Of a DNA stretch of 64,000 bases, positions 49,508 through 62,325 are shown piece after piece. The DNA comes from Chitinophagales bacterium (GTDB lineage: Bacteria; Bacteroidota; Bacteroidia; Chitinophagales; LD1). A model generated the notes under the pieces. It was not told where the DNA came from. It saw nothing but the letters and a program-made list of their open reading frames with translations, and searched no databases. Every line of letters begins with the position of its first letter. Within the stretch, counting starts at the first letter, position 1. Location of the stretch: contig JAEUUZ010000023.1 of assembly GCA_016786765.1 (NCBI GenBank), forward strand, positions 62,001 to 126,000, written 5' to 3'. The position numbers and the translations under genes were made by a program.

Positions 49508-50056
49508 TCATAAGAAATCAATGGCTATCATTCCTTTTCCACCCGCATAATCTACAGCGCTTCCGTATATCCAATGTTCAGCTTCTGCCACAAATCCTGC
49601 TACGATTGGATTATTGTGGATATAGTCAATTTTTTGATCTATCACTTCATTTGAAAAAAGTTCAATGGGTTGGTTGTCTTGTCGCCAAAACTGAAATTCC
49701 TTATTGTTAGGATTATACGCTCCCGAACTTTTAAAGATAGCCAACATCCATTCTTTTCGGCTCTCTGCGGGGTGATTGGCTATTGTTTTTATAATTGCTT
49801 TGCTACAGTGTTTCTTCAAATCGCGAATTACATCTACTAAACTAAATTGCTCTTGTACACTTACTACTAGATGCACATGGTTTGTCATTATCACCCATGC
49901 GTGAACACGAAGTCCTTTGTGCAATTGACAGAACTTTAGACTATCTACAACAATATCTTTGTAGTTGTTTCTTGTAAATACATCTATCCAACCTACAGTG
50001 GCAAAACTTAGGAAATAAATGCCGTTGGGGTTGTGCACTTTATATGCTCGGCTCAT
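49508..50056 (-). CDS. REP-associated tyrosine transposase (RAYT), Y1_Tnp superfamily
   Basis: A 182-residue IS200/IS605-like transposase domain protein. The metal-binding HUH motif is in VIMTNHVHLVV (near 55-65). Further family landmarks are IRDLKKHCSK, EFQFWRQDNQPIEL, IDQKIDYIHNNPIVAGF and GSAVDYAGGKG. It is full length and uninterrupted. RAYTs are usually single-copy and mobilise or maintain REP palindromes rather than themselves. Here the gene is bracketed by REP copies 1 and 2 in inverted orientation. The position equivalent to a conserved aromatic in relatives reads KKHCSK; whether this affects catalysis is unknown. Confidence 0.93.
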   Translation of the reverse strand: MSRAYKVHNPNGIYFLSFATVGWIDVFTRNNYKDIVVDSLKFCQLHKGLRVHAWVIMTNHVHLVVSVQEQFSLVDVIRDLKKHCSKAIIKTIANHPAESRKEWMLAIFKSSGAYNPNNKEFQFWRQDNQPIELFSNEVIDQKIDYIHNNPIVAGFVAEAEHWIYGSAVDYAGGKGMIAIDFL

Positions 50057-50154: not shown

Positions 50155-51144
50155 TTATCTGAGTAGTGTGAAAGAACCTGTTTTTTTGTAGGCGATTTTT
50201 TTTTGAGGATTGTCAGGTAAAGGTAAATCAGCAAAAATATAGTACATATAAACTTCTTGAGGTTGGTCTTCACCCCTAAACTTACCATCCCACTTTGTCT
50301 CAGTATTATCGTGGATTAATTCACCCCATTTATTGTATACTCTGAATTGTTGAATTGTTATTTTTTTGTCGAAGTAAACTGGATAGTAAAAGTCATTTTG
50401 ACCATCATTATTTGGCGAAAATGCGGTTGCCATTTCAATTTGGTTGATTCCATATACAGCGACATCGTCAATATAATAATAGGATTGTTCGTAAAAATCC
50501 GGGTTTCTCCCTTGGACGGTATCCCACGTTGTGTTTTGATTATCTGTGAATACTCCAATAGTTATAAATTGCTCGCCACCCGTTGCTTTAAAAAAACCAC
50601 TTACTTCAGTCCAATTTTCATTATTCGTTATTGACTTATTTGGGGTGTTGATAACTTGGGGGACTACACGAAAATTTTCATCGGATATGCTAGTAATTGG
50701 TGTGTCAGAAAAATAAGCACCGATATTATTGCAACCTAAGCCGCTCCGATCTGCTAGTGAGACGTAAAATTTGGTTTGATAAATCTTACCTGCTTCTAAA
50801 GGTAAAATGAGCTTACACTGTATATATTCTCTGATAACTGGAATTATCGAACTATCACCAATAACATAAATACCTGCATAAGCATTTCCGGTTTTTGCAT
50901 TTTGAAAGCCAACATCATTTTGAGGAATCCCAACATCTAAAATATTACATGAGTTATAATAATCTGGAGAAGCAATATTAGGATTACTCCAATTCTTGGT
51001 ATAGCTAAGTTGACTTAATGTATTCGGACAACTATCATACTCCTCAAAACTCGGATTTGGCACCAGATTTATCTGTGCAGTTGCGGGAGTGTATATGAGT
51101 TGGAGTAGACTCATTAACAGGGTGGTTTTTATTAGTCTTTTCAT
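50155..51144 (-). CDS. T9SS type B cargo protein A (gliding motility-associated C-terminal domain)
   Basis: A 329-residue secreted protein. The signal peptide ends near PATAQ-INLV (residue 23), followed by the lectin-like N-region LVPNPSFEEYDSCP. A jelly-roll carbohydrate-binding-like fold seems likely for residues 25-230. The C-terminal ~90 residues are a T9SS type B sorting domain: TAFSPNNDGQNDFY, VYNKWGELI, KWDGKFRGE and the terminal SFTLLR. Export would need the porU/porV machinery in this window. Its first ~41 codons and upstream 200 bases are nearly identical to those of cargo gene B, while the rest diverges. Confidence 0.87.
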   Translation of the reverse strand: MKRLIKTTLLMSLLQLIYTPATAQINLVPNPSFEEYDSCPNTLSQLSYTKNWSNPNIASPDYYNSCNILDVGIPQNDVGFQNAKTGNAYAGIYVIGDSSIIPVIREYIQCKLILPLEAGKIYQTKFYVSLADRSGLGCNNIGAYFSDTPITSISDENFRVVPQVINTPNKSITNNENWTEVSGFFKATGGEQFITIGVFTDNQNTTWDTVQGRNPDFYEQSYYYIDDVAVYGINQIEMATAFSPNNDGQNDFYYPVYFDKKITIQQFRVYNKWGELIHDNTETKWDGKFRGEDQPQEVYMYYIFADLPLPDNPQKKIAYKKTGSFTLLR

Positions 51145-51363: not shown

Positions 51364-52350
51364 TTATCGAAATAAGGTGAGATTTGAAATTTTGGAAATA
51401 GGTTTGCCATCTACAACGACTGAAACATACACAGCATATACATCCGAGGGTTGTTGTTCGCCTTTAAATATCCCATCCCATGTATAATTACTGTTGTTTG
51501 AGGTGAAAACCTTTTCTCCCCATCGGTTATAGATATTCATTATGTAATCCACATAATTTGTACAATTAGTTATCCATTTATATGTGTCATTCATATTATC
51601 ACCATTTGGGGAGAAGGCGGTAGGTAAAATAAAATCACAATTTGATACATTAGTGTAACAAATTGTGGAATCTTCACTCAAACAGACGTCATCTAAAAAA
51701 TAATAACTTTGAGAAGGTGGAGAAGCGTTTGACAAGTATGATGTATCTAATTGATTAATGTCAAAAAGTCCTCCAATGATTAAATACTCATATGCGGAAT
51801 CAGCAATAAAAGAACCTGAAACTTTTATCCAATATACGGTATCTTTGATTACAATACTAGAAAATACTTGACTGTAATTTGATAATTGCTTAATGCCTAA
51901 ACTATCATAATGATATAATGTTGAGAACATAACTCCCATTTTGTTTGAGGAAATATTTAAGGAGTAATTATTATAAGCTAGCGATAGATAAAAACTCACA
52001 TAGTATTTATTGCCTTTTATCAATGAGCTGTTTAGTTTTACACCTATTTGTTCTGCATTGTTATTTACATCACAATTTACGAACCCAACATATGCTTCTC
52101 CCGTATGCGCCTTTTGATAACTTAATACATTAGCAAATCCAAGATTTGAAGAACAATTATTAAAATAGTCAGGTGAACCTTTGAAAGATCTCCAATTCTT
52201 CAAATTGCCATCTACTTCTTCGAGGCTATTCGGACAACTAACATACTCCTCAAAACTCGGATTCGGCACCAGATTTATCTGTGCGGTTGCGGGAGTGTAT
52301 ATGAGTTGGAGTAGACTCATTAACAGGGTGGTTTTTATTAGTCTTTTCAT
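51364..52350 (-). CDS. T9SS type B cargo protein B (paralogue of A)
   Basis: A 328-residue secreted protein with the same signal peptide and N-region as cargo A (identical through PNPSFEEY). The middle is homologous but strongly diverged (SPDYFNNCSS against SPDYYNSCN; SYYFLDDVCL against SYYYIDDVAV). The C-terminal sorting domain is TAFSPNGDNMNDTY, IYNRWGEKVF, TWDGIFKGEQQPSDVY and terminal NLTLFR. It is rich in Asn, Ser and Tyr. It lies upstream of A in the same orientation, separated by REP copy 3 and a RAYT relic. It probably arose by tandem duplication. Confidence 0.87.
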   Translation of the reverse strand: MKRLIKTTLLMSLLQLIYTPATAQINLVPNPSFEEYVSCPNSLEEVDGNLKNWRSFKGSPDYFNNCSSNLGFANVLSYQKAHTGEAYVGFVNCDVNNNAEQIGVKLNSSLIKGNKYYVSFYLSLAYNNYSLNISSNKMGVMFSTLYHYDSLGIKQLSNYSQVFSSIVIKDTVYWIKVSGSFIADSAYEYLIIGGLFDINQLDTSYLSNASPPSQSYYFLDDVCLSEDSTICYTNVSNCDFILPTAFSPNGDNMNDTYKWITNCTNYVDYIMNIYNRWGEKVFTSNNSNYTWDGIFKGEQQPSDVYAVYVSVVVDGKPISKISNLTLFR

Positions 52351-52776: not shown

Positions 52777-55500
52777 ATGAAGCTGAAGTCACTTTTTGTC
52801 GTTTTACTATTTGCCCCTGTGTTTGCCCAAGCATCGCATGTGCGAGCCGGAGAAATTTACTATCAAGTTACGGCCCCGTTTACCATTAAGGCTACTATTG
52901 CCACGTACACCAAAATTGTAGGAGCGAATCCCGGGGCGGATAAAAACCAACTTTCGCTGAATTGGGGCGATGGGTCTTCTTCTGTAGCAACCCGCGTAAA
53001 CGGTCCAATCAATGGTGACGGTTTCCCCAATGGCGAAGATATTGGCAATAACATAAAGCGCAATTTTTACGTGACAACGCACGTGTATGCAGGTGTGCCA
53101 CCAGCGCCTAATAATTTTTATTTAATTACTTGTGCCGATTCCCTACGCAACAACAATATTTTGAACATCAATGGAGGATCATCAGATGGAGTGATTTTCT
53201 TCGTGGAAGACACCATTAAATTCCCGAATGATATTTCCAATATTGGCTTTAATTCGTCACCAATCTTACTTAATCCGCCTATCGATTTTGCGAATGTGGG
53301 AGACACGTTTTATCATAACCCGTTAGCCTACGACATTGATGGCGACAGCCTTATCTATGAATTGATTGATCCCCTGCAACAGAGCGGTGTGCCTGTGCCG
53401 GGCTATAAATACCCAAATCAATTGTACATCAGTGCGAATAATAAAGTCTCGCTCAATCGCTTTACCGGTGAATTTATTTGGGCGGTACCCCAAGCCAGTG
53501 GCATTTACAATATTGCCATTTTAATTCGAGAATACAGGCGAGGTGTGGTGATGGGAACCATGATTCGCGACATGCAAATTATTGTAGAAAACAACAACAA
53601 TCAGCCTCCGCAAATTAATGCATTGAATGATACCTGTATACGCGCAGGAGATGCACTGATACAGGATGTTACGGCTAACGATGGCAATGCTACTCAGCTG
53701 GTTACTTTATCGGGCAATGGCGGCCCCATGCAGGTAACGAACAACAAAGCCACCTTCCCAACACAAGTGGGGAATCCTGTAACAAGCACCTTTACTTGGA
53801 ATACCTTGTGTGAACATATTCAACGATTGCCGTATACCATGGTGTTTAAAGCAGAGGATAACTACAGCACACCATTAGTAGATCAAGAAACGTGGTTAAT
53901 TAATGTGGTACCGCCACCGGTTAAAAATGTTACAGCCACTGCCATTCACAAGCAGATTACAGTGCGCTGGAATAGCTATGATTGCAGTTCTTTCGTTAAT
54001 TTCAGAGGCTTTTCGGTATGGCGAAAAATTGCCAGTAATCCGTTTACCCCTACCTATTGCGAAACCGGATTGGCCGGACGCGGATATACAAAAATTGCAG
54101 ACCGACTTACCGATACGTTTTTTGTAGACAATACGGCTATTCGCGGGAATGAATACTGCTACCGAATTTTAGCGCGCTTTACCAAAAAATCGCCAAACGG
54201 TATTTTTGAATGGGATGAAATTGAAAGTGTACCTTCTAACGAGGTTTGTATTTATTTGCCTTTGGATGTACCGGTGTTGACCAAAGTAAGCGTACAAACA
54301 ACCGATGCAACTACCGGCAAAATGGATATTGCTTGGACAAAACCCAAAGCGGGCGGAACTAACCTAGATACCTTACTTGACCCACCTCCATACCGATTTG
54401 ACTTGTATCGTTCTACAGGATACAATGTAGCTTCGCCTCAGTTGGTGTATAGCGTTACCAAAAATACTTACTACGACTTGAACGATACGATATTCACTGA
54501 TTTGAATTTGAATACCGAATTGAATCCATATACCTATCAAGTTTATTTTTATTCGCAGGCCGATACCATTGGCAGTTCAGATCCTGCATCATCGGTGTAT
54601 TTGAGTATTGGTGCCAGCGATCAGAAATTGAATTTGAGTTGGGATTTTAACACGCCTTGGGCGAATGATACATTCCATGTATTCAAGCGCGATAACGGCA
54701 CTGGTTTGTTTAATTATTTGGCCACAACTAATGTGAAAACACTTACCGATACTGCATTGACCAATGATACTACCTATTGTTACTACATCAAATCGTTTGG
54801 GCATTATACTAATCCGTTAATTCAACGACCGCTCATCAATTTGTCGGAGATACAATGTGCCGCTCCAAAAGATACCATTGCTCCTTGTCCTCCGGTTTTA
54901 GAGGTTTCCAATCAGTGTTCGAACTTGAGTTCTGATACTTTTGTGTATGCCAACTTTTTGAAATGGCATAACTATACGGATAGCTGTGGGGCCGATGTGG
55001 TGAAGTACAAAATTTATTTCCAACGCGATACAACAACCGGATTTCAATATGTTGATTCTACCGGTAATATCAGTGATACAACATATACTCATCAACTCCT
55101 TGAAAGCTTGGCCGGTTGCTATGTTGTAACAGCGATAGACCGATTAGGGAATGAAAGTCCGAAAACGAATACAGTTTGTATAGATAATTGCCCGGTGTAT
55201 GAGCTGCCAAATACCTTTACGCCAAATGGTGATGGGGCGAATGATTTCTTTACCCCGAGAAAACCTTACCGCTTTGTGTCGAGAGTAGAGTTTAAAGTCT
55301 TTAATCGCTGGGGGGAAAAGGTGTTTGAAACTACTGATCCGGAATTGAAGTGGAACGGACAAGATCAGAAAACAGGAAAAGATTTGCCGGATGGGGTGTA
55401 CTATTATGCCGGTTATTATTACGAACAACATTATGGAGCTGAAGTGAAGAAACCGTTGCCATCCAAAAAAGGAGGTGGGTTTATTGAGTTGCTCCGCTAA
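52777..55500 (+). CDS. Large T9SS type B cargo protein
   Basis: A 907-residue secreted protein. The signal peptide ends near FAQAS-HVRAG (residue 19). The N-terminal region SHVRAGEIYYQVTAPFTIKAT-type (landmark HVRAGEIYYQ) is common to large gliding-associated adhesin-like proteins. The centre has an Ig/cadherin-like part (DIDGDSLIYELI) and three or so fibronectin III-like repeats (VTATAIHKQITVRWNSYDC, LDVPVLTKVSV, SDQKLNLSWDFN). The C-terminal type B sorting domain is NTFTPNGDGANDFF, VFNRWGEKVFE, KWNGQDQKTG and IELLR. It is intact. The ribE gene starts 15 bases after it. Confidence 0.9.
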   Translation: MKLKSLFVVLLFAPVFAQASHVRAGEIYYQVTAPFTIKATIATYTKIVGANPGADKNQLSLNWGDGSSSVATRVNGPINGDGFPNGEDIGNNIKRNFYVTTHVYAGVPPAPNNFYLITCADSLRNNNILNINGGSSDGVIFFVEDTIKFPNDISNIGFNSSPILLNPPIDFANVGDTFYHNPLAYDIDGDSLIYELIDPLQQSGVPVPGYKYPNQLYISANNKVSLNRFTGEFIWAVPQASGIYNIAILIREYRRGVVMGTMIRDMQIIVENNNNQPPQINALNDTCIRAGDALIQDVTANDGNATQLVTLSGNGGPMQVTNNKATFPTQVGNPVTSTFTWNTLCEHIQRLPYTMVFKAEDNYSTPLVDQETWLINVVPPPVKNVTATAIHKQITVRWNSYDCSSFVNFRGFSVWRKIASNPFTPTYCETGLAGRGYTKIADRLTDTFFVDNTAIRGNEYCYRILARFTKKSPNGIFEWDEIESVPSNEVCIYLPLDVPVLTKVSVQTTDATTGKMDIAWTKPKAGGTNLDTLLDPPPYRFDLYRSTGYNVASPQLVYSVTKNTYYDLNDTIFTDLNLNTELNPYTYQVYFYSQADTIGSSDPASSVYLSIGASDQKLNLSWDFNTPWANDTFHVFKRDNGTGLFNYLATTNVKTLTDTALTNDTTYCYYIKSFGHYTNPLIQRPLINLSEIQCAAPKDTIAPCPPVLEVSNQCSNLSSDTFVYANFLKWHNYTDSCGADVVKYKIYFQRDTTTGFQYVDSTGNISDTTYTHQLLESLAGCYVVTAIDRLGNESPKTNTVCIDNCPVYELPNTFTPNGDGANDFFTPRKPYRFVSRVEFKVFNRWGEKVFETTDPELKWNGQDQKTGKDLPDGVYYYAGYYYEQHYGAEVKKPLPSKKGGGFIELLR

Positions 55501-55515
55501 TGCAAAACACAAAAT

Positions 55516-56106
55516 ATGTTTACCGGAATTATTGAAACAATTGGGAAAGTGGTGGCCATTGAAACGAATGGCGTTTGTGTAGATTTTGTTATTCAATCAG
55601 CTATTTCTTCGCAGTTGAAAATTGATCAAAGTGTTTCACACAATGGTGCCTGCTTAACCGTGGTGGAACTGAGTGAAGATTCACATCGTGTAACGGCTGT
55701 GCCGGAAACATTAGCAAAAACAAATTTAGGGCAGTTAAAAGCTGGAGATGTAGTGAATTTGGAACGTTGTACCATAGTTGGCGGAAGATTAGACGGACAT
55801 ATTGTTTCTGGCCATGTAGATGCAACCGGAACCTGTGTGCATGTATTGGAAAATCAAAACAGTTGGGTGTTTACGTTTCGTTATTTGCCTTCTGCTAATG
55901 CGTTGGTGGTAGAGAAAGGGTCAATTTGTATTAACGGTATAAGTCTAACCGTTTTTGATGTGCATGATGATGTGTTTTCTGTAGCTATCATTCCATACAC
56001 ATACGAGCACACGAATATTCATGCCGTGAAAGCGGGGTCAACAGTGAATTTGGAGTTTGATGTTATTGGGAAATATGTAGCAAGGATAACTTCCTTCAAA
56101 CAGTAG
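55516..56106 (+). CDS. ribE: Riboflavin synthase alpha subunit
   Basis: A 196-residue enzyme that dismutates two 6,7-dimethyl-8-ribityllumazines to riboflavin. Two lumazine-binding repeats are visible: MFTGIIETIGKV with SHNGACLTVVE in the first half, and GHVDATGTCVHV with CINGISLTVFD in the second. Length is typical. No riboswitch was noticed upstream; it seems to be read from within or after the large cargo gene's transcript. The GT2 gene follows after 58 bases. Confidence 0.96.
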   Translation: MFTGIIETIGKVVAIETNGVCVDFVIQSAISSQLKIDQSVSHNGACLTVVELSEDSHRVTAVPETLAKTNLGQLKAGDVVNLERCTIVGGRLDGHIVSGHVDATGTCVHVLENQNSWVFTFRYLPSANALVVEKGSICINGISLTVFDVHDDVFSVAIIPYTYEHTNIHAVKAGSTVNLEFDVIGKYVARITSFKQ

Positions 56107-56164: not shown

Positions 56165-56854
56165 TTGAAACTATCGATTATCATGCCTGTCTTTAATGAA
56201 GCAAAAACCATTCGCGAGATTATTGCGAAGGTGCAGGCAGTACCCCTCGAAAAAGAATTGGTGATCGTAGACGATTGCTCTACCGATGGCACCACCGACA
56301 TTCTTCGTAATGAATATGACGGAAAATTCGATAACGTTCAAGTATTATATCACTCGGTGAACAAAGGAAAATCGGCCGGTATACGCACCGGAATTCCGCA
56401 TGCTACAGGCGATATTATTTCTATTCAGGATGGAGATTTGGAAACCGACCCGAACGATTTTATTGCCTTAACCGCACCAATTAGAAGTGGTGAAGCGCAA
56501 GTGGTGTATGGTTCGCGGTATTTGAACCCGAAAGAGGCACATTTGTATTTATCGTATCAATTGGGCGGAAGAGTTTTATCTACCGCTGTAAATGTGCTAT
56601 ACGGTCAGCGTATTACCGATGAACCTACATGTTATAAAGTGTTTCGGGCTGATATATTAAAGTCGATAAAGTTAACCTACGATCGCTTTGAATTTTGTCC
56701 GGAAGTAACGGCCAAAGTGTCGAAGTTAGGATATAAGATTAAAGAATTGCCGATGAACTATTACCCACGTTCTTTTGACGAAGGGAAAAAAGTGAACTGG
56801 AAAGATGGCGTGAAAGCCTTGTGGGTGTTGTTAAAATTCAGGTTTGTCAATTAA
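56165..56854 (+). CDS. GT2 glycosyltransferase, dolichyl/polyprenyl-phosphate sugar synthase-like
   Basis: A 229-residue soluble GT-A enzyme. KLSIIMPVFNEAKTIREI opens the fold, VIVDDCSTDGTTD follows, the DxD-like motif is QDGDLETDPNDF and the acceptor-side motif is VVYGSRYL. It matches DPM1-type polyprenyl-phosphate mannose/glucose synthases without C-terminal membrane spans. These load a sugar on a lipid carrier for use by GT-C enzymes outside the membrane. The start is a TTG codon (56165), preceded by AAGAAAG; no ATG gives the conserved N-terminus. The next two genes encode a small membrane protein and a GT-C-like protein, which fits such a role. Confidence 0.85.
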   Translation: MKLSIIMPVFNEAKTIREIIAKVQAVPLEKELVIVDDCSTDGTTDILRNEYDGKFDNVQVLYHSVNKGKSAGIRTGIPHATGDIISIQDGDLETDPNDFIALTAPIRSGEAQVVYGSRYLNPKEAHLYLSYQLGGRVLSTAVNVLYGQRITDEPTCYKVFRADILKSIKLTYDRFEFCPEVTAKVSKLGYKIKELPMNYYPRSFDEGKKVNWKDGVKALWVLLKFRFVN

Positions 56855-56856
56855 TT

Positions 56857-57387
56857 ATGAAACAAGAACAAAATAATCCGGGTTTGTTGCGGAGGAATCT
56901 GCTAGTGGCCTTTATACTTGGAGTGATATTATTACTCCTCTACGTTTCTGTGCCCGGTTATCATTGGGCGATTACAGAAATGGCGGTGCGTAACAAAGAA
57001 CTTATCGATCGTATTGAAACCAGACGGCTAAACACAAATATGCCCGAGCTGACAATGGACGATAAGCGTTTGTTCAAGATCAGTAACTACTGGTATTTGA
57101 AATATTTGCGCGAAAATACACCGGAGAATGCGGTTATTCTTTTACCTCCACATTCGGCTATTGATACATCTGACGAGATGAAATTTCTGAACAGTGCCGA
57201 ATGGGTAGAGTACTTTATTTTCCCGCGTTTGTGTGTGGGTGAAGACGATAAAGAAAAGAGCAAAGCTTTGTATGCCAAGGTAACACATGTGGCTATCGTT
57301 AACGGTTGGGGTTACGATAAACTCCACTATTCGCCCGAGAAACGCACTAGCGAAATTGTATTGCCCATTGATTCTCTAAAAAAGTAA
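56857..57387 (+). CDS. Small single-span membrane protein, module paralogue 1
   Basis: A 176-residue protein from ATG 56857 (MKQEQNN), two bases after the GT2 stop; a longer in-frame form from 56821 would overlap GT2. One membrane helix spans residues ~13-31 (LLVAFILGVILLLLYVSV), then a soluble domain follows, probably outside. Landmarks are NTPENAVILLPPH, WVEYFIFPRLCVGEDD and VAIVNGWGYDKL. All three recur, diverged, in the protein at 60213-60788. No known family is recognised. Its placement between a lipid-sugar synthase and a GT-C protein suggests a cofactor or substrate subunit. Confidence 0.7.
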   Translation: MKQEQNNPGLLRRNLLVAFILGVILLLLYVSVPGYHWAITEMAVRNKELIDRIETRRLNTNMPELTMDDKRLFKISNYWYLKYLRENTPENAVILLPPHSAIDTSDEMKFLNSAEWVEYFIFPRLCVGEDDKEKSKALYAKVTHVAIVNGWGYDKLHYSPEKRTSEIVLPIDSLKK

Positions 57388-57405
57388 ATCGTCAATTTTA
57401 CAGCC

Positions 57406-58791
57406 ATGATGTTATTTGTAGGAATTTTGATGTTGTATGTGACTGGTGCAAGTATTCTTGTTCGCTTTGGCACTCGGTTTAGCTGGAAAGAAATGATTTC
57501 TTTTTCGTTTCTGTTAGGTATAGCCGCGCAAACGTTTTTCATGTTCATAGCTGATTTAATTGGTTTTGGATTCACACATTTGGTGCTCTTTTTTGCCAGT
57601 TTCGCTTTGGTGATATTTAGCTACGATTTGTTGTACAGTTATTATCAAGAGCACAGACAAAACATTAAACTACCTGCGTTTTCGTTGGGTACGCTCAATT
57701 ATCCTGCCGCTTTATTGTTCTTGCTGATTCTTGTGTTGTTTTATATTATCGCACAGAAAAACCTTTATTGGCCGGCTGCGGAGCACGATTCTATTGCCTC
57801 GTTCGACAAACTGGGCATGGTGATGGCATTAGAAGGAAAAATAAAAATCAGCTTGTTTCAATACAATTTGCAAGGTTCAGGAGGGATTTATCCGCCATTA
57901 TTTCACGGAGGAATAGCCTATATGTATCTCTTTGGAGCAGAATCGCCAAAGATTATCACTACGCTATTCTATGCCTCGTTATTGCTTTCTTTTTATGCTT
58001 TGTGCAAGAAATATGTGAGCGCAATCAATGCCTTGTTCTTCACCTTGTTGCTGGAAATGGTTCCGGAAATGTATTCGCACGCTGCTTTGTTGTTGGGAAA
58101 TATTCCAACAACGGCCAATGTTGCAGCTGCAGGAATAACCTTGTTCTATTGGATCGATAAGCGCGAAAATGCCTATTTGTGGCTTTCTGCTACGTTTATT
58201 GCTTTGTCGCTTTGGACAAGAAATGACACCGTAGGTTTTGCAGTTGCTGCAGTTGCAGTGGTGGCTTGGGTTTTAGCTAAAGAAAAAGATTGGAAACGAA
58301 TCGCTATTTATACTGCAGTGTCGTTTTCTACGTTAATACTTTGGACACTTTACCTTCAACTTAAGATTGATATTCCTCAATCATCGCGTTTTGTGGATCA
58401 CTTCGGATTTGATGCACATAAAATGGAAGTGATGATATTATATGTGTTATCAATGTTATCGTGGTTGCAGTTTGGCACCATGTCGCCCGGTCATTTGTTG
58501 TATGGTTTAGCCTTCATTCTGCCAATCATTATCATATTGTTGAATTTCAAAAACATTCGGAAGGATCATACCGCGAAACTGGTTTTTATCTTTATTTCGT
58601 TTGTGGTGTACTTTTTGATTTTCTTTATGCTTGACGAGAAAAAGCAAGCTGCAACAATTTCGGAATTAATGGAATCATCATTCAAACGCGGTATGTTTTG
58701 TTTTATTCCGTTATTGTTGTTTTATGCTTCAACTTCGAGTATAGCTAATTCATTTTCTACATGGGTAGAAAACTTCCGACTCGGAAAATAA
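57406..58791 (+). CDS. Multispanning GT-C-like membrane glycosyltransferase, paralogue 1
   Basis: A 461-residue protein with about 11-12 membrane helices. The first extracytoplasmic loop has NLYWPAAEHDSIASFDKLG, where an acidic-aromatic patch is typical of the GT-C active site, then GIYPPLFHGG and NALFFTLLLEMVPEMYSHA. SLWTRNDTVGFA and RGMFCFIPLLLF are later landmarks. The fold resembles the ArnT/PMT/GT39-83 group, which uses polyprenyl-phosphate sugars. It has no signal peptide. It ends 6 bases before the convergent paralogue at 58798-60162. Confidence 0.7.
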   Translation: MMLFVGILMLYVTGASILVRFGTRFSWKEMISFSFLLGIAAQTFFMFIADLIGFGFTHLVLFFASFALVIFSYDLLYSYYQEHRQNIKLPAFSLGTLNYPAALLFLLILVLFYIIAQKNLYWPAAEHDSIASFDKLGMVMALEGKIKISLFQYNLQGSGGIYPPLFHGGIAYMYLFGAESPKIITTLFYASLLLSFYALCKKYVSAINALFFTLLLEMVPEMYSHAALLLGNIPTTANVAAAGITLFYWIDKRENAYLWLSATFIALSLWTRNDTVGFAVAAVAVVAWVLAKEKDWKRIAIYTAVSFSTLILWTLYLQLKIDIPQSSRFVDHFGFDAHKMEVMILYVLSMLSWLQFGTMSPGHLLYGLAFILPIIIILLNFKNIRKDHTAKLVFIFISFVVYFLIFFMLDEKKQAATISELMESSFKRGMFCFIPLLLFYASTSSIANSFSTWVENFRLGK

Positions 58792-58797
58792 AATACA

Positions 58798-60162
58798 TTA
58801 AAACGTTAGCCAGCTATTCAACTTTTCGAACACCCAATTGATGTGTTTGCTCATGGCTGCATAAGCCAAGCCAAGTGGTGCGTATACGAATAAGCCTCGT
58901 TTATATCCTGAAAGCATCCAACCGCCATTGCTAAACAAAGTTCCATCGGTGTTATCCATTTGGTAATACAGCAAAGTGTATCCACCAAGGGCTACTGCAA
59001 TGATGAATAGGAACGCCCAATTGTCTTTTTTGATAATAGCCGGAATGTTTACTAATACTGCCAAAACAAATATCCAGAAGGTCCATGCATACGTTTGAGG
59101 ATTCGTCATTATACCCCAAGCAGTAGAAAGTACTTGTCCTAATTTTTCTGAATTCCAAAACAAGTGATCGATGAAAAAACCTCCTTGCGACTTAGGAATT
59201 ACTGTTTTTGAGTACAGGCTCCAAATCACAAAGGTGCTCATGGATGCGCCAATAAATAAAAGTGGTTTTATGTTTTTTTCTTTCACCAAAACAAATGCAG
59301 ATACGAGCAACAATGCTCCGGTCACCATTACCACATCTGAACGCGTCCACATCCCCAATGCCATGAGTAGTGCTGAGATAGCTAAAAAGCCCGGTACTCT
59401 TTTTTCATACCATACTAAAAAACTTAATACCGCTCCAGCGGTATAAACTGTACACGGGTAATTAGTGAGGGAGAATGCCCCATGTGCAAACATCTCAGGC
59501 GTAATCACCATAAACAAGGTGAAGAAAATAGCGCTGGTGGAACTCACAAATCTTCTGAGCAATGCATAAAATAAGAATACCCACGGCACAAAGAAAAGGG
59601 TGTTAATTAACTTTGGCGTGTCCATGCCATTCATGTAACAAATAGCATTGTTAAGTGCCAATAAAGGTGGATAGAGTAAACGAGGGCCGCAACCTTCAAC
59701 TATGGCTTTGTTCGTTAGAATCGAATTTGCTAAATGCCCTTCATGCGCAATGGCCTTCGATAATAAATCGTAGCCTTCAATGGTATCGAATTCTGCCGGT
59801 GGCCAGTACAAACATTTAGTAGTAATTCCCCATACTAAATAGGTTGTCATACCTGCAAATACAAGCCACACCAAGTTGAACCATTTGAAATCAGGTTTAA
59901 TCACCGGCTTTTCAAATGGTCTGATGCCTTTGAAATGCAAGAAGGCTAATACGCCAACACAAATGGCAATACAAAGCAACAGTAGGAGCTGCAAGTATCC
60001 TAAAGTAATTGTATGAAAAAGAATATCGCTTATGAACATGAATAAGCTACTTAATCCTAATCCAATTGGAAAGGCAAATGCCAGTTTTTCGAGCAGCGTG
60101 AAATGATTTGAAATTGTAGTGACAAGAATAAATCCTGTAATAAATATTAAAACAAATAGCAT
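58798..60162 (-). CDS. Multispanning GT-C-like membrane glycosyltransferase, paralogue 2
   Basis: A 454-residue protein, collinear with the one at 57406-58791. Shared landmarks: CLYWPPAEFDTIEGYDLL against NLYWPAAEHDSIASFDKL; RLLYPPLLALN against GIYPPLFHGG; SAIFFTLFMVITPEMFAHGA against NALFFTLLLEMVPEMYSHA; MWTRSDVVMVTG against LWTRNDTVGFA; YKRGLFVYAPLG against FKRGMFCFIPLL. About 11-12 membrane helices. It is transcribed toward its paralogue, after the small protein at 60213-60788, so the pair mirrors 56857-58791. Confidence 0.7.
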   Translation of the reverse strand: MLFVLIFITGFILVTTISNHFTLLEKLAFAFPIGLGLSSLFMFISDILFHTITLGYLQLLLLLCIAICVGVLAFLHFKGIRPFEKPVIKPDFKWFNLVWLVFAGMTTYLVWGITTKCLYWPPAEFDTIEGYDLLSKAIAHEGHLANSILTNKAIVEGCGPRLLYPPLLALNNAICYMNGMDTPKLINTLFFVPWVFLFYALLRRFVSSTSAIFFTLFMVITPEMFAHGAFSLTNYPCTVYTAGAVLSFLVWYEKRVPGFLAISALLMALGMWTRSDVVMVTGALLLVSAFVLVKEKNIKPLLFIGASMSTFVIWSLYSKTVIPKSQGGFFIDHLFWNSEKLGQVLSTAWGIMTNPQTYAWTFWIFVLAVLVNIPAIIKKDNWAFLFIIAVALGGYTLLYYQMDNTDGTLFSNGGWMLSGYKRGLFVYAPLGLAYAAMSKHINWVFEKLNSWLTF

Positions 60163-60212
60163 AGTAGACGATCTTTAGTTAGGGCAATGAATACAATAAA
60201 AATTAGGGCAAA

Positions 60213-60788
60213 TTATTTTAGTTTCAAAATCATGAACGGCTCCGGTTTCTCAATGGGAGGCGATACTTTGTCGATTCCCCAGCCGTTAATCGATACCAAG
60301 TAATTGGCTTTTGCATAATTGGGATTAGTAGCTTTTTCATCTTCGTATACAACAACACGCGGATACAAAAAATAAGTAATCCATGGTAAATCGGGCGCAC
60401 TTTTGAAGCCTACATCCGTAAACGTTTTCTTGGGTGGTAAGAGAATAACAGCAGATTCAGGTGTTTCGTTCTTCATTTTGTATACATAAGTAATTTCACC
60501 TTGTCCCCACTTGGCTTCATACTTTTGTTGTGTATTCAAATCGGGGTGCTGCTCTATAGTTTTTAAGTTATTGGCTAACATGGTGTTGAACAGCCAATCG
60601 TAGCCGTTTTGGCTCTCTTCGTTGTGTTGAAACAAAATCATTAAAAAGATACCTGCAACAAAAGCACCACCCACATTGGCAACCACTTTCATGAACTTTC
60701 CGGACGATTCGGTTTCCGGCTTTTTAATAGCTTTCGCTTGTGAGGCTCGGTTTTTTGGCTCAGGCTTAACGTGTTTATTTTCTTTCAT
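60213..60788 (-). CDS. Small single-span membrane protein, module paralogue 2
   Basis: A 191-residue protein from ATG 60788 (MKENKHVKPEP); an upstream in-frame TTG at 60794 is less likely. A long charged N-terminal region (lysine/proline rich, ~36 residues) precedes one membrane helix (VVANVGGAFVAGIFLMILF). The soluble domain matches the paralogue at 56857: ETPESAVILLPPK, WITYFLYPRVVVYED and LVSINGWGIDKV. The family is unrecognised. It is upstream of the GT-C-like gene on the same strand with a 50-base gap. Confidence 0.7.
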   Translation of the reverse strand: MKENKHVKPEPKNRASQAKAIKKPETESSGKFMKVVANVGGAFVAGIFLMILFQHNEESQNGYDWLFNTMLANNLKTIEQHPDLNTQQKYEAKWGQGEITYVYKMKNETPESAVILLPPKKTFTDVGFKSAPDLPWITYFLYPRVVVYEDEKATNPNYAKANYLVSINGWGIDKVSPPIEKPEPFMILKLK

Positions 60789-61099: not shown

Positions 61100-61861
61100 A
61101 TGGGTCACAAAACGAGTCCGATAGCAAACAGATTAGGCATCACCAAAGGATGGGATAGCAATTGGTATGGTGGAAAAGATTCTGCTCAGAAATTAGTTGA
61201 AGATGCTAAAATCAGAACGTATATCAATGCGCGTATCAATAAAGGAGGTATTAGCCGTATTGTTATTGAGCGTACGTTAAAACGAATCACTGTAACAATT
61301 CACACTTCTCGTCCGGGAATTATTATCGGTCGTGGTGGAAATGAAGTAGATCGTTTGAAAGAAGAGTTGAAAAAATTGACATCTAAAGATGTTCAAATCA
61401 ATATCGTAGAAATCCGCAGACCGGAGTTGGATGCTGCAATCGTTGGCGAAACTATCGCAAAACAATTGGAAGCGCGTATCAACTATAGAAGAGCCCTTAA
61501 AATGGCTATCGCTTCTGCAATGCGTATGGGAGCTGAAGGAATCAAAATCAAAGTTTCTGGCCGTATCGGTGGAGCAGAGATGGCACGTTCTGAGGAGTAC
61601 AAACAAGGAAGAACTCCTCTACATACTTGGAGAGCAGATATCGACTACGCATTGAGCGAGGCGTTAACTGTATACGGAAAATTGGGCATTAAAGTATGGG
61701 TTTGCAAAGGAGAAATCTACGGCAAAAAAGAATTGGTGAGTTCATCATCATTAGAGCAAGGTGCAACCGGTCCGGCTGGTCAACAACAAGGACAAGGAGG
61801 TAGAGACGGAGGTCGTCAACCGCGCAGAGATGGTGGAAGAGCAAGAGCACCTAAGAAATAA
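61100..61861 (+). CDS. rpsC: 30S ribosomal protein S3
   Basis: A 253-residue protein. [22 protein letters not shown] opens it (landmark [12 protein letters not shown]), the KH domain has [20 protein letters not shown], and the C-terminal domain contains [17 protein letters not shown] and [13 protein letters not shown]3 forms part of the mRNA entry tunnel and has helicase activity. The last ~35 residues are a Gly/Arg/Gln-rich tail ([19 protein letters not shown]). It is the first gene of a six-gene ribosomal fragment; the expected upstream genes rplV, rpsS and rplB are absent. Confidence 0.97.
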
Positions 61862-61890
61862 ATTTACGGAAAAGATAAAATAGTCAGGAG

Positions 61891-62325
61891 ATGTTATTAC
61901 CTAAACGTACAAAGTTCAGAAAGCCCCAGAAAGGCAGAAATAAAAACACAGCTACTCGTGGAGCGGAAATCGCTTTTGGTGTTTTCGGTTTGAAAACATT
62001 AGAGTACTGCAAAATCACAAACAAACAAATCGAATCTGCAAGGGTTGCGGTTACACGTTTCATGAAGCGTGAAGGAAAAGTTTGGATTCGTATATTCCCT
62101 GACAAAGCGATTACACGCAAACCGCTAGAGGTAAGGATGGGTAAAGGTAAAGGTAATCCGGAAGGATGGTGTGCACCTGTTAAGCCGGGAATGTTATTGT
62201 TCGAATGTGATGGCGTTTCTCGCGAAGTTGCAGAAGAAGCAATGCGTTTGGCTGCTCAGAAATTGCCGGTGAAAACCAAATTTGTGGTGCGTAGAGATGC
62301 TGTTGAGTATAACGAGGTAGCATAA
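61891..62325 (+). CDS. rplP: 50S ribosomal protein L16
   Basis: A 144-residue L16. [15 protein letters not shown] opens it, with [41 protein letters not shown] and [11 protein letters not shown] later (given as landmarks [12 protein letters not shown] and [11 protein letters not shown]). L16 shapes the A-site tRNA pocket of the 50S subunit. The gene follows rpsC by 29 bases in the standard order. Confidence 0.97.

Follow-up and report, generated by a model that had tools for sequence, protein, structure and literature searches.

A probable two-polypeptide GT-C glycosyltransferase in Bacteroidota: small single-span proteins paired with GT-C membrane cores

Introduction

Why should a GT-C-like membrane protein be encoded, twice over at one locus, directly behind a gene for a small protein with a single membrane span? 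The question is raised by five genes in a 64,000-nucleotide stretch of DNA (the window) from a genome of Bacteroidota (G000). The relatives named here are Chitinophagales and unclassified Bacteroidetes MAGs. GT-C enzymes usually carry a C-terminal outer domain, as do ArnT, STT3, AglB and DPY19, and they use an acid in the first outer loop for catalysis. The small proteins of the module are labelled S1 and S2, and the large GT-C-like proteins B1 and B2.

Organization of the locus

A gene for a DPM1-like glycosyltransferase (GT2) is followed by S1 and B1 on the forward strand; B2 and S2 face them on the reverse strand. Inspection of open reading frames located all five genes that the initial annotation had assigned to the module. 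The features are as follows.

56165..56854, forward strand: GT2, 229 aa, TTG start, predicted polyprenyl-phosphate sugar synthase of the DPM1/ArnC kind, with no membrane domain of its own
56857..57387, forward strand: S1, one N-terminal membrane helix, then a predicted outer (periplasmic) alpha/beta domain
57406..58791, forward strand: B1, 461 aa, GT-C membrane core with about 95 extra N-terminal residues and without a C-terminal outer domain
58773..58787, reverse strand: stem resembling a terminator of the B2 transcript, located within the end of the B1 coding sequence
58792..58797, no strand: gap of exactly 6 bases separating the stop codons of the convergent genes B1 and B2
58798..60162, reverse strand: B2, 454 aa, paralogue of B1
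60213..60788, reverse strand: S2, 191 aa, paralogue of S1, 50 bases upstream of B2

Since the terminator-like stem of B2 sits within the coding end of B1, the convergent transcripts would overlap. The terminator count in the region is 8, only a slight excess over shuffled sequence (4.9, sd 2.1), and promoter-like sites do not rise above the shuffle level. No flippase is visible in the module, and neither S1 nor S2 matches a flippase family in Pfam or NCBIfam. Both have one hydrophobic span, and the plan of one span plus an outer domain rules S out as a several-span flippase of the GtrA/GtcA type.

The module has well-marked neighbours on both sides. The ribosomal protein genes rpsC and rplP (61100-62325) and those onward start right after S2. 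A break between rplV and rpsC divides the S10 ribosomal operon, with rplB-rpsS-rplV on another contig (C9; G000:C9:51262-51573, L160). Relatives in the family likewise have rpsC without an adjoining rplV, often with S1-B1 upstream. Directly before GT2 lie genes for a CHU_C (T9SS signal) protein and the riboflavin synthase RibE (52777-56106), and the order CHU_C-RibE-GT2-S1-B1 is kept in a genome of the same genus (G001). The initial annotation had named T9SS cargo, or else lipid, as a possible acceptor; the CHU_C gene is only a neighbour of the module. Farther upstream are two tandem genes for secreted proteins (50155-51144 and 51364-52350) whose first 37 residues are identical and whose remainders have diverged; judged by eye, both have a CHU_C-like tail. 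They are adjoined by a reverse-strand ORF of 182 residues (49508-50056) that resembles a REP-associated (Y1-type) transposase.

The lipid-sugar synthase

GT2 matches the Pfam family Glycos_transf_2 (PF00535) with an E-value of 1.3e-31. Its best match in the PDB is the dolichol-phosphate mannose synthase 5mlz (E 3.4e-14), followed by structures of ArnC (E about 1e-12). DPM1 and ArnC are the nearest relatives among solved structures, in agreement with the DPM1-like identity given to the protein at the outset. All NCBIfam equivalogs score far below cut-off, so sequence does not identify the sugar.

The link between this gene and the S-B pairs is looser than the initial annotation proposed, which counted GT2 as an integral part of the unit. 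Adjacency argues weakly for membership: GT2 stands next to S1-B1 in genera g1 and g4 and in some g3 genomes, and is located after B in G143. The orthologue in the same genus as G000, 86% identical, also adjoins S1-B1. Against this, the orthologue in genus g2 (55-60% identical) is unlinked to S1-B1, and in several g3 genomes no close orthologue was seen, only a second, order-wide GT2 paralogue (44-50%). With such variable linkage, GT2 is a frequent companion of S1-B1, not an obligate one.

The large proteins as GT-C cores

Judged by sequence scores, the GT-C assignment of the B proteins is borderline. In hmmscan against PMT_2 (PF13231, curated cut-off 26.1 bits), B1 scored 19.9 bits and B2 24.7. 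When the genome was searched with PMT_2, B2 reached 27.9 bits, above the cut-off, and B1 24.2, below it. A profile of B proteins matched PMT_2-type proteins of the same genome with a probability of 94 and an E-value of 1.4e-7, residues 104-300 of B aligning with the N-terminal half of those proteins. A sequence search of the PDB with the B profile gave nothing meaningful.

The predicted structure of B1 settles the assignment with good support. The AlphaFold model, built with 36 aligned relatives, has a mean pLDDT of 88.7 and a pTM of 0.91, and almost all of its structural neighbours are GT-C enzymes. For example, residues 97-450 of B1 match ArnT with Z 22.2 over 308 residues at an rmsd of 3.9; ALG12 (Z 18.6), AglB (18.3), STT3 (17.4) and PMT (16.3) come after it. 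The GT-C fold that had been suggested for the large proteins is thus borne out for B1, the protein modelled. Before residue 97, where the match begins, B1 has about 95 residues with three further helices.

The conserved residues of the family fall where a working enzyme would be expected to keep them. D128 of B1, in the first outer loop, follows directly on core helix 1 (99-121) and is invariant in 54 of 54 relatives; it has the place of the conserved outer-loop acid of GT-C enzymes. P164, P220, R272 and R428 are likewise invariant in the 54 B relatives, which come from several classes, and D134 is kept in 50 of 54. As read from this conservation, the invariant residues would make up the pattern of an active site and not of a degenerate scaffold.

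What B1 lacks is a C-terminal outer domain in the same chain. The protein ends with a helix at 445-458, and the model covers the membrane part only of its structural matches (ArnT 26-364, AglB 15-473, STT3 6-431 and DPY19 23-509). Many GT-C enzymes function without a C-terminal outer domain, so its absence from B is by itself no proof of a split enzyme.

The small proteins as candidate outer domains

S1 matches no Pfam or NCBIfam family. Its AlphaFold model (pLDDT 75.9) has a helix at 8-31 and a domain at 67-176 in which confidence is mostly 81-90. S1 and S2 have the motifs TPExAVILLPP ... YFLYPR in common. The first structural match of the S1 domain, and the highest, is residues 533-684 of DPY19 (Z 3.8). 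Other matches include residues 494-684 of STT3 (8agb, 6c26, 8age, 6s7o), the isolated C-terminal domain of AglB-S2 (3vu0) and ALG12. All of these are weak, with Z below 4, and almost the same scores are reached by unrelated alpha/beta folds, for example pyruvate kinase, so the structural matches alone would not carry the claim that S is an outer domain. A Foldseek search of the PDB with the S1 model gave no match at E <= 0.001, and a sequence search of the PDB with an S profile gave nothing meaningful.

Profile comparison with ordinary GT-C proteins provides a second line, independent of the structure matches, that points weakly but consistently to the same domain. In three sets of such proteins the S profile was placed at the C-terminal domain only, at positions 409-451 of 550, 403-423 of 519 and 426-449 of 527. 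The first set gave a score of 39.8, and none of 60 column shuffles exceeded 20.9; scores against the other two were weak and add only positional agreement. The match spans about 36 columns around one motif, with a probability of 72-80, and the motif shared by S and the C-terminal ends of the GT-C proteins is 'TPenAVILlPP'. In an ordinary GT-C protein of the same genome, for example, the S-like motif at the end of the chain reads 'NTPKDAVFSARKP'. Weakly but consistently, then, S looks like the missing C-terminal domain of a GT-C enzyme, beyond a mere accessory, a likeness that the initial annotation had missed. With B1 matching the membrane parts and S1 the C-terminal domains, the two models between them span the length of DPY19, STT3 and AglB.

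Pairing and distribution

S precedes B on the same strand, at distances from an overlap of 4 bases to a gap of 50, in 35 of the 36 pairs aligned, and in 14 of these 35 the two reading frames overlap. In the host family, B was found in 27 of 30 sampled genomes. S adjoins it in 24 of the 27, one is a fragment, and in the other two (G002 and G005) S is located elsewhere in the genome, which rules out its absence there. Outside the family, S precedes B at three Cytophagales loci and in G143, G335, G038, G548, G660, G728 and G791. The most distant lineages are f45, a family of another class, and G679, G789 and G623; there, a gene for 159-184 residues with one N-terminal span precedes B, and would belong to S by position, size, plan and a profile match with a probability of 93. 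Across several families and classes of Bacteroidota, almost all of the loci examined have a small gene directly 5' of B. S1-type proteins occur only with B1-type and S2-type only with B2-type, and no exception was found. This gene-neighbourhood survey supports the earlier proposal that the small and large genes are kept together elsewhere. The S-B pairing is real and old.

Inspection of long open frames revealed no natural fusion of S with B. A frame of 615 residues in G437 had the appearance of one, and proved to be an out-of-frame read of S before B, where S is an ORF of its own.

The family is not widespread. It was found in 11 of 394 sampled genomes of the phylum (about 3%), one of the 11 (G222) being an ordinary GT-C protein, and the count at the level of the order is 35 of 396 genomes. 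The transferase of general O-glycosylation in Bacteroidota has been reported as undiscovered (PMC12871550). A family present in about 3% of the sampled genomes is too rare to fill that place, so B was ruled out for it, and S-B would not solve the problem of the missing enzyme.

Origin of the face-to-face layout

B1 and B2 share 33% identity over residues 4-448 (E 3.5e-54), and S1 and S2 share 35% (E 1.9e-17); each is the sole copy of its kind in the genome. The paralogy and the mirror-image order of the two pairs speak for a recent inverted duplication of a single S-B pair, the origin proposed in the initial annotation. The phylogeny and the gene order in relatives leave that origin with hardly any credibility. 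In the tree, B1 (26 rows) and B2 (8 rows) form separate clades, each supported at 100/100, and Cytophagales B proteins are closer to B1 than B2 is, though long branches make the deep branching order less sure. In G001 the two pairs occupy separate contigs, and the neighbour of B1 is a different one. The pairs are likewise on separate contigs in g3, where some genomes have GT2-S1-B1 just upstream of rpsC, without S2-B2 there. Genus g4 has both pairs on one strand, separated by about 7 kb in which rplP and rpsC lie on the opposite strand. Inverting the block of rplP-rpsC and S2-B2 converts the g4 order to that of the window. The layout is therefore most simply explained, on gene order, by a rearrangement near rpsC that would have joined two old pairs face to face.

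A glycosyltransferase in two polypeptides

Each S-B pair probably forms a single extracytoplasmic GT-C glycosyltransferase, divided between two polypeptides. B would be the membrane core, binding a polyprenyl-phosphate-linked sugar as donor and carrying D128 as the catalytic acid of the first outer loop. S, anchored by its own N-terminal helix, would bind to B and supply the outer domain that is found C-terminally in ArnT, STT3, AglB and DPY19; this role of S is assigned with moderate confidence. The reading frames of the two chains adjoin or overlap. GT2 beside pair 1 would most likely charge polyprenyl phosphate on the inside, and the two pairs, as old paralogues, presumably serve different acceptors or linkages. 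In STT3 and AglB the C-terminal outer domain helps bind the acceptor. A narrower form of the proposal has the split enzyme act as a protein-glycosyl or oligosaccharyl transferase, with acceptor choice placed in S as an exchangeable, separate subunit; this form must be regarded as doubtful.

The division of labour could also be different. B may be a complete GT-C enzyme and S an unrelated single-span accessory that stabilises it, comparable to Pbn1/PIG-X with Gpi14/PIG-M. Gpi14-Pbn1 and PIGU-PIGT are known heterodimers in which a GT-C protein has a single-span partner (PMC12653191), and the weak likeness of S to GT-C C-terminal domains leaves room for such an arrangement. However, the best structural matches and the best profile matches of S both fall on the GT-C C-terminal domain, and the lumenal domain of Pbn1 is all beta (PMC12653191), whereas the S model is alpha/beta. 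We consider the accessory role unlikely. Far less probable is a B protein that is GT-C-like and has no glycosyltransferase activity, acting together with S as a polymerase, a ligase or a scaffold in the manner of PIG-U. GT-C-like proteins that are not enzymes do exist, and PIG-U is among the structural matches of B1 (7wld, 8imx). Across deep lineages, however, the outer-loop acid and the R428 motif are invariant, as would be expected of an active site, and a lipid-sugar synthase adjoins the pair in several genera and in G143.

If the two-polypeptide enzyme is the right explanation, it would be a GT-C family with a natural, separate outer-domain subunit, one that Pfam and NCBIfam cover only by weak PMT_2 scores, and two unnamed gene families would gain a testable function. 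One could then ask directly whether the outer domain, whose role is poorly understood, binds the acceptor, gates the site or does no more than stabilise the core. Core and acceptor-binding domain, fused in STT3, AglB, DPY19 and ArnT, could be studied or swapped as two natural proteins. In the open-access literature, no bacterial case of a split GT-C enzyme, or of an outer domain on a separate chain, was found.

Comparison with known systems

ArnT (GT83) and other bacterial PMT_2-type GT-C enzymes resemble B in a membrane fold of about 310 residues, in the outer-loop acid and in a PP motif after the acid, and by analogy with ArnT a polyprenyl-phosphate donor is likely for B. In contrast to ArnT, with which it is about 10% identical, B has three extra N-terminal helices, no outer domain in the same chain and an obligate small partner gene. 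In STT3/AglB/PglB and DPY19, the membrane part is the counterpart of B and the C-terminal outer domain that of S. These enzymes are single chains, unlike S-B, and no WWD-type motif is shown in S.

Proteins with DUF6798 (PF20604), which are GT-C-like proteins of Bacteroidota, have an S-like motif (ntPkDAvfl..p) at the C-terminal end, fused to a membrane part. They are single-chain, and their membrane part matches B by profile with a probability of only 1.1. Two ordinary GT-C-like proteins of G000, L141 (G000:C3:253799) and L152 (G000:C60:22005), have an S-like C-terminal domain of the DUF6798 type fused to them.

Among systems of two chains, GPI mannosyltransferase I (Gpi14-Pbn1, or PIG-M/PIG-X) combines a GT-C catalytic subunit with a partner that has one helix and a lumenal domain (PMC12653191). 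The domain of Pbn1 is all beta and its helix C-terminal, whereas S has an alpha/beta domain and an N-terminal helix. The three-component GtrABC systems (flippase GtrA, GT2 enzyme GtrB, GT-C enzyme GtrC) likewise join a carrier-charging GT2 to a GT-C enzyme (PMC11127046). The GT2 described here differs from the GtrABC arrangement in having no membrane spans and in not always being linked. Judged by analogy, the closest functional likeness of the module would be to such a pathway of GT2 and GT-C enzymes, as exemplified by the three-component systems (PMC11127046).
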